64,000 nucleotides of DNA. It comes from Saprospiraceae bacterium (lineage in GTDB: Bacteria > Bacteroidota > Bacteroidia > Chitinophagales > Saprospiraceae). This document shows positions 2,412-8,810 of the stretch, piece after piece. A program made the translations under genes and the position numbers. The notes below the pieces were generated by a model. It was not told the DNA's origin and did no database searches. It was given only the letters and a program-made list of their open reading frames with translations. The stretch's first letter is position 1. Each line of letters opens with the position of its first letter. Where the stretch lies: NCBI GenBank assembly GCA_020631235.1, contig JAHDHQ010000001.1, positions 237,858 through 301,857 on the forward strand, in the 5' to 3' direction.

Positions 2412-3806
2412 ATGTCACAAAGATATGCAGTTGTAGACATAGAAACCACTGGTGGAGATCCTAGACGTGACAAAATCACTGAAATTGGGATCGTAATACT
2501 TGAAAACAACGAAATTGTTAAGAAGTATAGTACACTCATTAACCCAGAAAGATCTATACCTGAATTTATTACTCGGCTAACGGGCATTACCAATGCAATG
2601 GTGGAAGAAGCCCCTAAGTTTTATGAAGTTGCAAAGGAAGTGGTAGAAATGACCGACTCAGCCATTTTTGTTGCTCATAATGTCAGGTTTGATTATCAAT
2701 TTTTACAACATGAGTTTAAACAGCTAGGCTACACCTTTAGCAAACGAAAACTCTGTACTGTAAGATTAAGCAGACAAACTTTTCCAGGATTAGATGGCTA
2801 TAGTCTGGGTAAATTAATTAAGTATTTTGATATACAGGTGGATTCGAGACACCGGGCTTTAGATGATGCATATGCAGCAGCCATCGTTTTATCTAAATCG
2901 TTAGAAAAAGGAAAAACTAAGAAGTCCATACAAAAAATGATTTCAGAAGGGATCAAATTAACTAGACTACCCAAACACATAGAACCTAAAGATATCTTAA
3001 CATTACCTGAAGATTGTGGAGTCTATTATTTTAAAGACACCACTGGACATATCGTTTATATCGGTAAATCAACCAACATCCAAAAGAGAGCCAAACAACA
3101 CTTTAGTAAAGAAAGTCGCAAAGCAAACCGAATGTTCAGAGAAGTAGCTGAAATTGACTATGTGCTCACAGGAAGTGAATTACATTCATTATTATTAGAA
3201 TCAAGTGAAATAAAAAAGCACCTTCCACCGATTAATGTAGCCCAAAAACAAAGTAAATATCCTTTTCAAATATTATCCTATCAAAACTCCAATGATTACC
3301 GGAGGTTCGAAATTTGCAAAAAAGGAATTTTATTGACAGATGAGCAGGTGGTTTTTGGGCAGTTTGCTAAAAAAGCACATGCAAAACATAGATTAAAGTC
3401 CCTGTGTGAACAATTTCAGTTATGTTATCAGTTTACTGACATTGAAAAACCTAAAGAAGGAGCTTGCTTTCTATTCGAAGTAGAAAAATGTTTTGGAGCT
3501 TGTGTGGAAACAGAACCCATAGAAAGTTATAACGAAAGGGCTGATCTGGCTTTGGAAGTGTTTAACCAATTTTTAGATCAACGATTCATCATTATTGAAG
3601 AAACCCACAATATAGATGAATTAATATGCTTTATCATTAAGGAAAACACCTATCAAGGTTATTGCTTAATCGATAATAATCATGCTTACAATTATGATCA
3701 AATAGAAGCTCAAATATCAAATATAGCCGAAGAAAATCCTGAACATCAAAGCATCATTCTTCAATATCTTTCGAGTAAGCCATCCACCAAAGTATTATAT
3801 CCCTGA
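2412..3806 (+). CDS. DnaQ-like 3'-5' exonuclease fused to a GIY-YIG (UvrC/Cho-like) nuclease domain
   Basis: The 464-residue protein carries two nuclease domains. Residues about 4-165 form a DEDDh exonuclease like DNA polymerase III epsilon: DIETTG (motif I), HNVRFDYQFL (motif II) and HRALDDA (motif III) are all intact. Residues about 198-275 form a GIY-YIG domain: GVYYFKD, then IVYIGKS, the conserved arginine in IQKRAKQHF, and a glutamate in LLLESSEIKKHLPP. About 190 further residues resemble the region after GIY-YIG in similar fusions. Such fusions are known from several bacterial phyla and are thought to act in DNA repair, cutting with one domain and trimming with the other. The gene is divergent from the muramidase gene, and its 3' end overlaps pyrF by 12 bp on the opposite strand. 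Confidence 0.9.
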   Translation: MSQRYAVVDIETTGGDPRRDKITEIGIVILENNEIVKKYSTLINPERSIPEFITRLTGITNAMVEEAPKFYEVAKEVVEMTDSAIFVAHNVRFDYQFLQHEFKQLGYTFSKRKLCTVRLSRQTFPGLDGYSLGKLIKYFDIQVDSRHRALDDAYAAAIVLSKSLEKGKTKKSIQKMISEGIKLTRLPKHIEPKDILTLPEDCGVYYFKDTTGHIVYIGKSTNIQKRAKQHFSKESRKANRMFREVAEIDYVLTGSELHSLLLESSEIKKHLPPINVAQKQSKYPFQILSYQNSNDYRRFEICKKGILLTDEQVVFGQFAKKAHAKHRLKSLCEQFQLCYQFTDIEKPKEGACFLFEVEKCFGACVETEPIESYNERADLALEVFNQFLDQRFIIIEETHNIDELICFIIKENTYQGYCLIDNNHAYNYDQIEAQISNIAEENPEHQSIILQYLSSKPSTKVLYP

Positions 3807-4904: not shown

Positions 4905-5987
4905 TTAAGAAACAGTAACAATATTCGTATCACCCTTTTCCTTGTTTCTTTTGTCCAATGATGCTTTTAGTTCGATGACCATTTGATCAAAATATGCTTT
5001 AGCGGGATGGACATCTGATTCCATAAATGGGAGACCTTTATCTCCTGCTTCTCTTACACTTTGTACGAGTGGCAACTGCCCTAGTAGTTTCGTATCTCCT
5101 AGATTTGCTAATTGTTCGCCACCTCCTTGACCAAACAAATAATATTTGTTATTTGGTAATTCTGCAGGTGTAAACCAACTCATATTTTCTACTACTCCAA
5201 GTATAGGAACATTGACATTCGGCAGTAGGAACATGTTCATGGCTTTTAAAGCATCTGCAACAGCTACATCTTGCGGCGTAGTAACCATCACTGCGGCAGT
5301 GAGTGGTATGGTTTGTACTAAAGTAAGCTGGATATCGCCTGTCCCTGGTGGGAGATCTATAATTAAGTAATCTAATGCCGGCCACACACAATCAAAAACA
5401 AATTGTTTAATAATTCCTCCCAGCCTTGGACCTCTCAAAACAACAGCTTGTTCAGGCTCTAACAAGTATCCTAATGAAATAGAATGGATTCCATATTTTT
5501 CGATAGGTATCATTTTAGGTTTACCTTGAACGGGCTGAATTTTAGGCTTTACATCTTTTAATCCTAACATGGTAGGCATAGATGGGCCGTACAAATCTGC
5601 GTCCATCAAGCCCACTTTTGCGCCTGCATTTTTTAAGGCTAATGCGAGATTTAAAGATACAGTAGACTTGCCTACTCCACCTTTGCCAGAGGCAACAGCG
5701 ATTATATTCTTTATTTGCGGTAAGGGATTCGCAAAATCATTGCTTGATTCCTTAATAAAATTGATAAGTACTTGGCTATCTGGGTACATTTGTTGTACAG
5801 CCTCAGTACAAGCTGTATTTAGAAACATTTTTAAATTATCCTCTTGTGGCCTCAATTTGATATCAAAAGTTAATTTATTATCGTCAATCCTTAAATTGTG
5901 AACCATTTTAGAATCGATGATATCCTTTCCGTGATTTGGGTGCTGAATAGTCCTAAGGGCTTGTAAAATCTTATTATTGTCCATCAT
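4905..5987 (-). CDS. Mrp/NBP35-family ATP-binding Fe-S carrier (ApbC-like)
   Basis: The 360-residue protein has an N-terminal DUF59/MIP18-like domain (about 5-80) and a ParA/MinD-type ATPase. The deviant P-loop GKGGVGKST is at about 101-109, followed by DADLYGPSMP (switch I) and IDLPPGTGD (Walker B). Mrp proteins are cytoplasmic Fe-S carriers or scaffolds. The segment after VENMSWFTPAEL, where many homologues have the CxxC that binds the cluster at the dimer interface, contains no cysteine here. I recall similar cysteine-free versions in other Bacteroidota, so this may be a lineage trait. The first of two adjacent ATGs is taken as the start. It is the first gene of a probable mrp-nfu-pyrF operon. 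Confidence 0.93.
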   Translation of the reverse strand: MMDNNKILQALRTIQHPNHGKDIIDSKMVHNLRIDDNKLTFDIKLRPQEDNLKMFLNTACTEAVQQMYPDSQVLINFIKESSNDFANPLPQIKNIIAVASGKGGVGKSTVSLNLALALKNAGAKVGLMDADLYGPSMPTMLGLKDVKPKIQPVQGKPKMIPIEKYGIHSISLGYLLEPEQAVVLRGPRLGGIIKQFVFDCVWPALDYLIIDLPPGTGDIQLTLVQTIPLTAAVMVTTPQDVAVADALKAMNMFLLPNVNVPILGVVENMSWFTPAELPNNKYYLFGQGGGEQLANLGDTKLLGQLPLVQSVREAGDKGLPFMESDVHPAKAYFDQMVIELKASLDKRNKEKGDTNIVTVS

Positions 5988-6090: not shown

Positions 6091-8067
6091 ATGAATGTAT
6101 TTACATCCATAAATGAATTGCCAAAGTTAGGCAAACATGTGGTAAGCTTTGGATCCTTTGATGGATTGCATCTAGGTCACAAAAAATTACTTCGGCGAAT
6201 TAAACAAATCGCTAAAGAGTACAACTGTGAAACTACTGTGGTGAGTTATCATCCACACCCTCGAAATGTATTGGACGCAAAAAATAGCAATATAAAATTG
6301 CTGACCAGTTTGGAGGAAAAAACGAAACTCCTTGAGGATTTTGGAATCGACCATTTAGTTATAGTCCCTTTCACTCTTGAATTTTCTCAACAGCACCCAA
6401 GAGAATATATTGAAAAATTTGTATTAGACAAACTCAATCCATCAGCCATTGTAATTGGCTATGATCACAGATTTGGTTTAAATAGACAGGGCGATTTCAA
6501 TCTCATGAAAGAGTACGAATCATCTTTTGAATATGGGATTTTCCAAATACATAAGGAAGAGATAGATGATATAGCCATAAGCTCATCAAATATTCGGCAT
6601 TCGCTAAATACTGGAGACATCACCCGAGCTAATCATTTTTTGGGCTATAAATATCAAATGAATGGCAAAGTAGTAAAGGGAGATGGTATTGGCAAAACGC
6701 TGGGATATCCAACTGCTAACTTAAGCATAAAGGGTGAAGAGAAACTAATTCCGCGAGATGGCATCTATGCTTGTAAGGTCCATTTTGATGAAAGTGAATA
6801 TCAGGCTATGCTCTACATTGGCCACAGACCTAGTATAAAAAACAATGACTCGAAAAAGGTAGAGGTTAATATATTTGATTTTAATCAAAACATTTACGAA
6901 AAAGATATTAAAATTGAGTTTGTCAGTTATATCAGAGATGATCAAAAATTTGATTCTCTGGAAGATTTGAAAAACCAATTAGCTTTAGATAAAATAAACA
7001 CAAAGGCTTTTTTCGATAGGACCACAATCTATAAATCTAAGTTCAAAACGACAATTGCTATACTGAATTATAACGGAGAAGAATTTCTAGAAGCTTATCT
7101 TCCTTCTGTTGCGGAAAGCAGTAAAAATGACATCAAAACTGTACTTATAGACAACAAAAGTACAGACCACTCTATTTCTTTCGTCAGAGAATGGTTTCCA
7201 GAAGTGGAGATTGTGGAACTTAGTCAAAATTATGGTTTTGCTGAGGGGTACAACAAGGGCATGGAGTTTATCGACTCGACATTTACTGTACTATTAAACT
7301 CAGATGTATTAGTCTCCAAAAATTGGTTGGACCCCATTATAGATCTAATGGAAAAGGACCCAAGTATTGCGGCGGCCATGCCTAAGGTTTTATCTTTAGA
7401 AGAACAACAAATGTTCGAATACTCGGGAGCTTGTGGCGGATTGATGGATCCCTTAGGTTATCCAATTTGTCGAGGTAGAATGTTCCAAACCTGTGAAGAA
7501 GACACTGGGCAATATGATGATATTAAAGAAATATTTTGGGCTAGTGGAGCTGCTTTAGTGGTACGCACAGATGTATTTAAAAAGTTTGGAGGTTTCGACG
7601 GCGATTATTTTGCTCATCAGGAAGAGATCGATTTTTGTTGGCTGCTAAAAAATGCCGGTTACAAAATCATGGTTGTCCCCACTTCTAAAATTTATCATTT
7701 AGGTGGCGGCACTTTAAGTTATGAGAATCCACATAAAGTATTCTTAAATTTTCGTAATAATTTGACCACCATTATTAAAAATGAAAAAGGGATGAATCTT
7801 TTTTGGGTCATTCCAATACGATTAGTTTTAGACGGGGTTGCAGGTATATTTTTCCTTGCAAAAAGAGAGTGGAAAAGCACTATAAACATCATTTCAGCAC
7901 ATATAAACGTCTACATTTCACTTCCCAAACTTTGGGCAAAGCGTAAAAAGAATTTAGAGCTCATCGAGCAACATAAAATTTCATATCCAAATTATGAAGG
8001 CCGCATCAAGCAGTGGTCTATTTTCCAATATTTTGCTTTTGGCAAAAAGAAATTTAGTGATCTATAA
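6091..8067 (+). CDS. ribF: Fusion of bifunctional riboflavin kinase/FAD synthetase with a family 2 glycosyltransferase
   Basis: One uninterrupted 658-codon frame encodes two complete enzymes. Residues 1 to about 305 are RibF: the FAD synthetase half has GSFDGLHLGHKKLL with HLGH, and ISSSNIRHSL; the riboflavin kinase half has GKTLGYPTANL and the C-terminal IRDDQKFDSLEDLK segment. This makes FMN and FAD from riboflavin in the cytoplasm. From about residue 318 a GT2 domain starts (TIAILNYNGEEFLE), with IDNKSTD, NYGFAEGYNKG, LLNSD (the DxD-like site), EIFWASGAALVVR, HQEEIDFCW and HLGGGTLSYENP. The C-terminal part may contact the membrane (WVIPIRLVLDGVAGIFFLA). The linker is about a dozen residues with no ATG, GTG or TTG start at the junction, so separate translation of the second half looks unlikely. 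The RluA-family gene follows after 2 bp. Confidence 0.93.
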   Translation: MNVFTSINELPKLGKHVVSFGSFDGLHLGHKKLLRRIKQIAKEYNCETTVVSYHPHPRNVLDAKNSNIKLLTSLEEKTKLLEDFGIDHLVIVPFTLEFSQQHPREYIEKFVLDKLNPSAIVIGYDHRFGLNRQGDFNLMKEYESSFEYGIFQIHKEEIDDIAISSSNIRHSLNTGDITRANHFLGYKYQMNGKVVKGDGIGKTLGYPTANLSIKGEEKLIPRDGIYACKVHFDESEYQAMLYIGHRPSIKNNDSKKVEVNIFDFNQNIYEKDIKIEFVSYIRDDQKFDSLEDLKNQLALDKINTKAFFDRTTIYKSKFKTTIAILNYNGEEFLEAYLPSVAESSKNDIKTVLIDNKSTDHSISFVREWFPEVEIVELSQNYGFAEGYNKGMEFIDSTFTVLLNSDVLVSKNWLDPIIDLMEKDPSIAAAMPKVLSLEEQQMFEYSGACGGLMDPLGYPICRGRMFQTCEEDTGQYDDIKEIFWASGAALVVRTDVFKKFGGFDGDYFAHQEEIDFCWLLKNAGYKIMVVPTSKIYHLGGGTLSYENPHKVFLNFRNNLTTIIKNEKGMNLFWVIPIRLVLDGVAGIFFLAKREWKSTINIISAHINVYISLPKLWAKRKKNLELIEQHKISYPNYEGRIKQWSIFQYFAFGKKKFSDL

Positions 8068-8069
8068 TT

Positions 8070-8810
8070 ATGGCTAAAGAACGACTACCCATTGTTTTTG
8101 AAAATGATGCTCTAATAATTGTCAATAAGCCAGCAGGATTGCTCAGTATTCCAGACAGGTATTATGGACACCTTCCCAGTGCAAAGCAAATGCTCAAAGA
8201 TCGATTCGAGGAGATATTTGTGGTCCATCGATTAGACAAAGATACTTCAGGCTTAATCATATTTGCTAAAGATGCCGAAACGCATAAAGAATTGTCATTA
8301 CAATTTGAAGAACACAATGTTACGAAAGAATACTTAGCCGTTGTCGATGGACAAGTAAACAGTGAAGATGGTAGCATATTAGAACCCATAAGTTTTAATA
8401 AACAAAAGCAAGCTGTAGAGCTTAAAAAGTCAGGTAAAAACTCCATCACCCATTTTGAAGTACTCGAAAGATTTCAAGACTATAGTTATCTTAAGTTAAA
8501 TATAGAAACTGGCAGAATGCATCAAATCAGAGTCCATCTAAAATCGATCGGCCATCCATTAATGGTTGATGCTAAATATGGCTATCGTGATGCTTTCTTT
8601 TTATCTGAAATAAAACGTAAAAAGTATCATCTCCAGAAATACGAAGAAGAAAGACCCCTACTGCGAAGGCATCCGTTGCACTGCTTTAGACTAGTTTTCA
8701 CCCATAAAAAAGAAACCATCGATATTAACATTTTTGACCAATTGCCGAAAGATATCAAAGCGATACTCAATCAGCTCAGAAAACACAATCCAGTCAGAGA
8801 CACATTTTAA
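8070..8810 (+). CDS. RluA-family RNA pseudouridine synthase
   Basis: A 246-residue pseudouridine synthase that isomerises uridines in rRNA or tRNA. It has the RluA-family catalytic motif HRLDKDTSGL with the nucleophile D56, an opening NKPAGLLSIPD segment, and GRMHQIRVHLKSIGHPL near residue 150. It has no N-terminal S4 domain. The precise rRNA or tRNA target cannot be read from the sequence, so I give no gene symbol. It starts 2 bp after the RibF-glycosyltransferase fusion, so the two are almost certainly cotranscribed. Its stop codon shares a TTAA tetranucleotide with the stop of the convergent peroxidase gene. Confidence 0.92.
   Translation: MAKERLPIVFENDALIIVNKPAGLLSIPDRYYGHLPSAKQMLKDRFEEIFVVHRLDKDTSGLIIFAKDAETHKELSLQFEEHNVTKEYLAVVDGQVNSEDGSILEPISFNKQKQAVELKKSGKNSITHFEVLERFQDYSYLKLNIETGRMHQIRVHLKSIGHPLMVDAKYGYRDAFFLSEIKRKKYHLQKYEEERPLLRRHPLHCFRLVFTHKKETIDINIFDQLPKDIKAILNQLRKHNPVRDTF

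Follow-up and report, generated by a model that had tools for sequence, protein, structure and literature searches.

The bifunctional RibF of Corynebacterium ammoniagenes (riboflavin kinase/FAD synthetase, PDB 2x0k) is the nearest described relative of the flavin enzyme treated here, with a likeness that extends over the full length and both domains at about 31% identity in the Foldseek alignment. Unlike that enzyme, the RibF of the present locus runs on, with no stop, into a linker and a family 2 glycosyltransferase (GT2, hereafter GT). Riboflavin genes were found to be fusion-prone in a survey of B-vitamin gene fusions, whose passages, supplementary tables aside, name only RibFa and RibFk (PMC4921024). 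A second point of reference is dnaX, the classic case of a slippage gene: according to passages of the GeneTack study, nine of 17 two-ORF dnaX genes carry ten As and were taken as cases of transcriptional realignment, and cassettes with 11, 9 and 7 As gave 63, 40 and 10%, respectively (PMC3711429). The word "riboflavin" occurs neither in the text of that study nor in the available part of PMC5009743, and a title and abstract search of the open-licence literature turned up nothing about a fusion of RibF with a GT or about slippage in ribF.

The window, that is, the whole stretch of 64,000 nucleotides from a Saprospiraceae bacterium that was analysed, contains the fusion gene between a divergent neighbour and a closely following downstream gene (table below).

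Table. Features of the fusion locus (positions in the window); the names of the two neighbours are presumed from family resemblance rather than based on HMMs.
Feature	Position	Strand	Remarks
Mrp-like ATPase (presumed)	4905..5987	-	divergent upstream neighbour of the fusion
RibF-GT2 fusion gene	6091..8067	+	658 codons and stop; ATG start
FMN adenylyltransferase (FAD_syn) domain	6130..6588	+	codons 14-166; Pfam FAD_syn, 3e-45
Riboflavin kinase domain	6640..7014	+	codons 184-308; Pfam Flavokinase, 1.5e-42
Linker	7015..7047	+	codons 309-319; low model confidence at 311-316; no start codon
GT2 glycosyltransferase	7048..8064	+	codons 320-658; GT-A fold and C-terminal helices
RluA-like pseudouridine synthase (presumed)	8070..8810	+	begins 2 bases past the fusion stop

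A preliminary description of this DNA had read a complete RibF and a complete GT2 in one 658-codon frame with no internal start at the junction, and both points were confirmed. Pfam places FAD_syn, Flavokinase and Glycos_transf_2 (PF00535) in this order, the last at residues 321-428 (1.6e-17; 64.4 bits against a gathering score of 23.3), and the RibF half matches TIGR00083 (ribF) with 259.6 bits against a cut-off of 184.35, covering model positions 3-289 of 290; no NCBIfam equivalog scored above its cut-off for the GT half. There is no in-frame ATG, GTG or TTG between codons 294 and 371, so the GT lacks a start of its own at the junction and an independent GT start within the window fusion is ruled out. 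In an alignment of 42 fused proteins, the catalytic residues of both halves are retained: G21, F23, D24, G25, H27 and H30 of FDGxHxGH are invariant, as are T208, A209 and N210 (TAN) and E258 of the riboflavin kinase domain, and N403-S404-D405 and H509-x-E511-E512-I513-D514 of the GT half are invariant or nearly so, N403 and D405 strictly. We take FDGxHxGH and TAN to be the nucleotide-binding residues of RibF and the GT motifs to be metal and acceptor motifs.

The AlphaFold2 model of the fusion (pTM 0.55) consists of two confident halves (mean pLDDT 87) connected through a helix and a disordered segment, with pLDDT below 50 at residues 311-316, and therefore supports no fixed arrangement of the halves. 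Foldseek searches recovered solved RibF structures for the RibF half and, for the GT half, GT-A enzymes including GlfT2 and GalNAc-transferases, and a sequence search of the PDB with the GT half returned one weak match, 6p61. Elsewhere in the window, a 464-aa frame at 2412-3806 (+) appears to encode a DnaQ-type exonuclease that continues into a part of GIY-YIG (UvrC-like) type.

The suspicion that a stop or frameshift had gone missing at the junction was refuted, as the same uninterrupted frame from 1 to 658 is present in two further genomes of the genus, 86% and 67% identical. A scan of 84,980 species genomes, which reaches close relatives only, yielded seven full-length relatives, six from Saprospiraceae and one from Aureispira, although these records overlap in part with the family genomes that include the same-genus copies. 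Sequencing or assembly error in the window fusion is excluded by the same-genus copies and the seven relatives together.

The preliminary description had also called for a taxonomic mapping of proteins holding both domains, which places the fusion in Saprospiraceae. Some match was found in 297 of the 298 Saprospiraceae genomes searched. Loci were read as DNA after selection by rank, genus and weak match, before the runs described below had been noticed; both halves were present at 204 of 213 loci, which correspond to about two thirds of the 298 genomes, and the nine loci lacking one half on the stretch were dropped. RibF and GT form one frame at 156 of the 204 loci and neighbouring same-strand ORFs at the other 48; by genus, 76 are fused only, 17 split only and four mixed, so that the fusion occurs in 80 genera. 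The split pairs are usually coupled, either by an ATGA or TGATG overlap or by a short gap followed by ATG, and a few have gaps of 180-480 bases. In one split pair (L285, genome G004), the GT has no ATG, GTG or TTG, and its one candidate start is a CTG sharing bases with the ribF stop (CTGA). Among 86 Saprospiraceae loci of about 8 kb, rluA lies on the same strand downstream of the pair in 67 and a divergent mrp lies beside it on the opposite strand in 56.

Outside the family, no match spanning RibF and GT was found in 203 genomes (68 from the order, 73 from the class and a further 62 from the phylum), among which the closest RibF/GT pair seen on one contig was about 9.6 kb apart (G309). The closely related core GT2 orthologue is present in nearly every one of these Bacteroidota genomes, but as a lone gene not linked to ribF. 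There, the neighbours of ribF are presumably truB, uppP and ftsX-like genes and those of the GT presumably GWxTD-like, aroQ and xerD-like genes, names assigned from the sequences rather than by HMMs. The GT2 half is thus near-universal in the Bacteroidota genomes searched, and its role appears undescribed in the literature searched. The Flavobacterium gene fpgA, whose operon partner is another glycosyltransferase-like gene, is not claimed as a described orthologue of the GT (PMC4293000).

The origin of the fusion was traced on a FastTree phylogeny of the concatenated halves with 200 family rows and 20 outgroups, four of the 204 loci being too short for inclusion. The Saprospiraceae rows form one clade (support 0.98), in which early-branching members have ribF and GT adjacent as separate ORFs and most others have them joined. 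The fused or split state requires 13 parsimony changes against a mean of 42 with shuffled labels (18 and 17 on the single-half trees). A two-rate model (lnL -53.7, against -64.2 for gains only and -65.2 for losses only) gives a probability of 0.014 for a fused family root and reconstructs one gain for a clade of 174 rows, ten losses and two further gains; these counts are approximate, the deep branches being poorly supported and the 174-row clade having a support of 0.0. The tree model thus favours adjacency first and then one main fusion, after which the genes separated again about ten times and fused twice more. The RibF-GT fusion is real and old, and in the window gene it is of the plain, zero-frame kind that is shared across the lineage.

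The junction of the relatives carries a further feature. Runs of A9-A11 are found there at 32 of the 204 loci, 27 fused and five split, in all three codon phases, and some of these loci have 51-59% GC; the other 172 loci, the window included, have no run of at least 9. The window as a whole contains no A or T run of at least 9, and its junction region has only a T6 just upstream of the linker, so the window gene does not carry the A-run expected for programmed transcriptional realignment. Runs of at least ten As number 22 in the junctions (16.9 kb) and none in RibF (179 kb) or GT (207 kb), and for at least nine As the figures are 33 in the junctions and one in RibF and GT together.

Runs of nine to ten As in the coding frame of the relatives exceed chance. 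For the null, each amino acid sequence was recoded 2000 times according to the codon usage of its gene; this null and the comparison with avoidance elsewhere were modelled on the approach described in passages of Baranov et al. 2005 (PMC1088944). Fused linkers contain 28 runs of at least 9 against 12.4 ± 2.6 expected, and 17 exact A10 runs against 5.4, a number that none of the 2000 replicates reached, but no run of A11 or longer against 1.9, an absence shared by 188 replicates. The two domains show the opposite, with one run of at least 9 against 14.9 ± 3.1, while A7 and A8 there fit the null. The linker is rich in Lys (13.7% vs 6.9%), which explains part of the runs, the null already accounting for 12.4 of the 28; in a narrower test on KKK tripeptides, 13 of 22 were coded by A9 against 8.2 ± 2.2 expected. 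When each of the 80 genera was represented by one locus, the excess held for A9+ (17.2 vs 7.3) and A10 (11.2 vs 3.3), and the null never reached the observed value in 300 draws. In five GC-rich genomes, chosen mostly because they bear a run, 6-27 exact A10 runs occur on both strands of 3.8-8.1 Mb, one at the ribF-GT junction; by arithmetic from such run-bearing GC-rich genomes, a chance A10 in a junction of about 80 bases would be expected at an order of 1e-4 or less per genome. Among outgroup genes, none of 20 RibF ends had a run of at least eight As and none of 60 GT starts was preceded by one of at least nine.

The runs are not all independent, as the 31 run-bearing rows of the tree need 20 changes and do not represent 31 events. 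An A9 or A10 is present in four species of genus g17, whose linkers have otherwise diverged; its place and phase differ among them, and one of the four has the -1 layout. Genus g64 combines two A10 loci in the -1 frame with two run-free fused loci. The runs of the relatives suggest that the junction is under selection.

The five split loci with A10 or A11 give a further indication of slippage. In all five, the reading frame of the GT, -1 relative to RibF, stays open through the run, and RibF ends 1 to 10 codons after it; an ATG for the GT is present in none of them but in 35 of the remaining 43 split loci (Fisher p 0.0008), and three have no ATG, GTG or TTG at all. The -1 position of the GT is also shared by 26 of these 43, and frame direction alone is therefore weak evidence. 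Among the run-bearing loci, the GT is in the zero frame relative to RibF in 27, in -1 in five and in +1 in none, occurrence in either frame direction among orthologues being given in a passage of the GeneTack study as a criterion for realignment (PMC3711429). In the fused loci, a stop in the alternative frame follows the run within 11 codons in 27 of 27 cases, compared with 83% at control positions, and within three codons in 15 of 27, compared with 42%; as these stops are barely nearer than at the controls, their placement is weak proof of slippage. The even phase of the runs is likewise a weak argument against ribosomal frameshifting, every A9 holding a slippery heptamer in any phase. Programmed slippage probably occurs in some relatives, yielding both RibF and RibF-GT, and transcriptional slippage is the more likely form, because the excess of As begins at 9-10 and not at 7-8.

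As a control, dnaX was read in 16 family genomes. Of the 15 readable genes (one locus was unread), 13 have A9 or A10 in the same region, 12 of these in the same phase, and the -1 stop usually lies two codons past the run. In most relatives, the run lies inside one long frame; in the window genome's own dnaX (L350, G000:C13, about 133839-134903 and beyond), an A10 is followed by a C-terminal part in -1, and making the long subunit would require slippage. Another possible slippage fusion was noticed at L340 (G107:C20 around 17488), where an A10 lies inside an 846-aa frame that presumably encodes a Mu-type phage portal and, after it, a head morphogenesis protein.

These observations are consistent with the following course of events. 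At the base of Saprospiraceae, a core Bacteroidota GT2 gene would have landed directly downstream of ribF, giving the new row ribF-GT-rluA, and the two frames would then have fused, once for most of the family, into RibF-linker-GT. In the window organism, all GT would be produced attached to RibF through a short flexible linker, and GT output is expected to be tied to ribF expression. In part of the family, RNA polymerase, or less likely the ribosome, would slip at the A9-A11 run and produce RibF alone, ended by an alternative-frame stop a few codons on, together with RibF-GT from one gene; at loci with a -1 GT, the joined protein would arise by slippage. The account as a whole, from the new gene row and the main fusion to the plain fusion in the window and slippage in part of the family, appears reasonably likely to us.

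It has to be weighed against the possibility, raised in the preliminary description, of a bystander fusion of adjacent genes. On this reading, the GT came to lie behind ribF, the stop was lost and the joined protein was tolerated, and the A-runs arose by drift because the Lys-rich linker is unconstrained. We know of no biochemical reason for joining RibF and GT2, whose reactions are unrelated, and the flexible linker with its low pTM, the repeated returns to split genes and the lack of a run in the window and at 172 of the 204 loci all fit such a view. As an origin it holds, the genes being unlinked outside the family, adjacent in early branches and then joined; as a full account, "bystander" is too weak, because the poly-A runs of the relatives point to selection on the junction. 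Exact A10 runs at three times the synonymous expectation with a sharp stop at A10 (no A11 in fused linkers), avoidance of A9+ in the adjoining coding DNA and the persistence of runs at 51-59% GC make pure tolerance rather unlikely. The preliminary description had also suggested a coupling of flavin supply to envelope glycan synthesis. Such a functional coupling, in which the GT tethers RibF, for example near the membrane via the C-terminal helices, so that the supply or sensing of flavin influences the making of the glycan or is influenced by it, would agree with a fusion found in 80 genera among the loci read and with two intact active sites. It is nevertheless improbable, and the least favoured of these readings, considering that RibF and GT are unlinked outside the family, that split orthologues are common (48 of 204 loci) and that AlphaFold2 predicts no confident interface between the halves.

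Two other readings concern the runs themselves. At a contingency locus, the length of A10 would shift by replication slippage and switch the GT on and off from cell to cell by phase variation, the -1 loci being RibF-only phases; the mixture of in-frame and -1 A10 loci within genus g17 and the layout of genus g64 are what such switching would leave, but the same run lengths occur in dnaX of the same genomes, which is not a contingency gene, and the runs end at A10-A11, and we consider it unlikely. Somewhat more plausible, though still doubtful, is that assembly errors account for the five A10/A11 split loci, where the gene would in truth be fused, since most of the genomes are drafts or MAGs and homopolymers are error-prone. 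That all five point to -1 and that the window genome's dnaX has the same A10 and -1 layout argue otherwise, and the A10 excess in the fused in-frame loci is independent of these five.

The permanent joining of a core cofactor enzyme to a phylum-wide sugar transferase offers a handle on that transferase. If slippage is true, a housekeeping gene would join the short list of cellular genes using poly-A slippage, with a signal seen evolving and turning over within one family, and the split, slippage and fused loci would form a natural series for asking what purpose gene fusion serves. Annotation pipelines may label some ribF-GT loci as frameshifted or broken.

The nearest known parallel is dnaX with A9/A10 programmed transcriptional realignment, as described for Thermus and the GeneTack dnaX cluster in passages of PMC3711429: the run lengths are the same, a short and a long product would be expected, and the second ORF is in -1 as in the five split loci. 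Unlike dnaX, ribF-GT joins two unrelated enzymes, the position and phase of its run turn over freely, and most of the family, like the window gene, lacks the run. For the stronger proposal that the junction is a second dnaX-like gene, we see the balance as even: a selected A9-A10 slippage site, re-created repeatedly in a fast-changing linker, would set the ratio of RibF to RibF-GT, and lineages would shift among in-frame fusion, slippage fusion and coupled split genes for the same two outputs.
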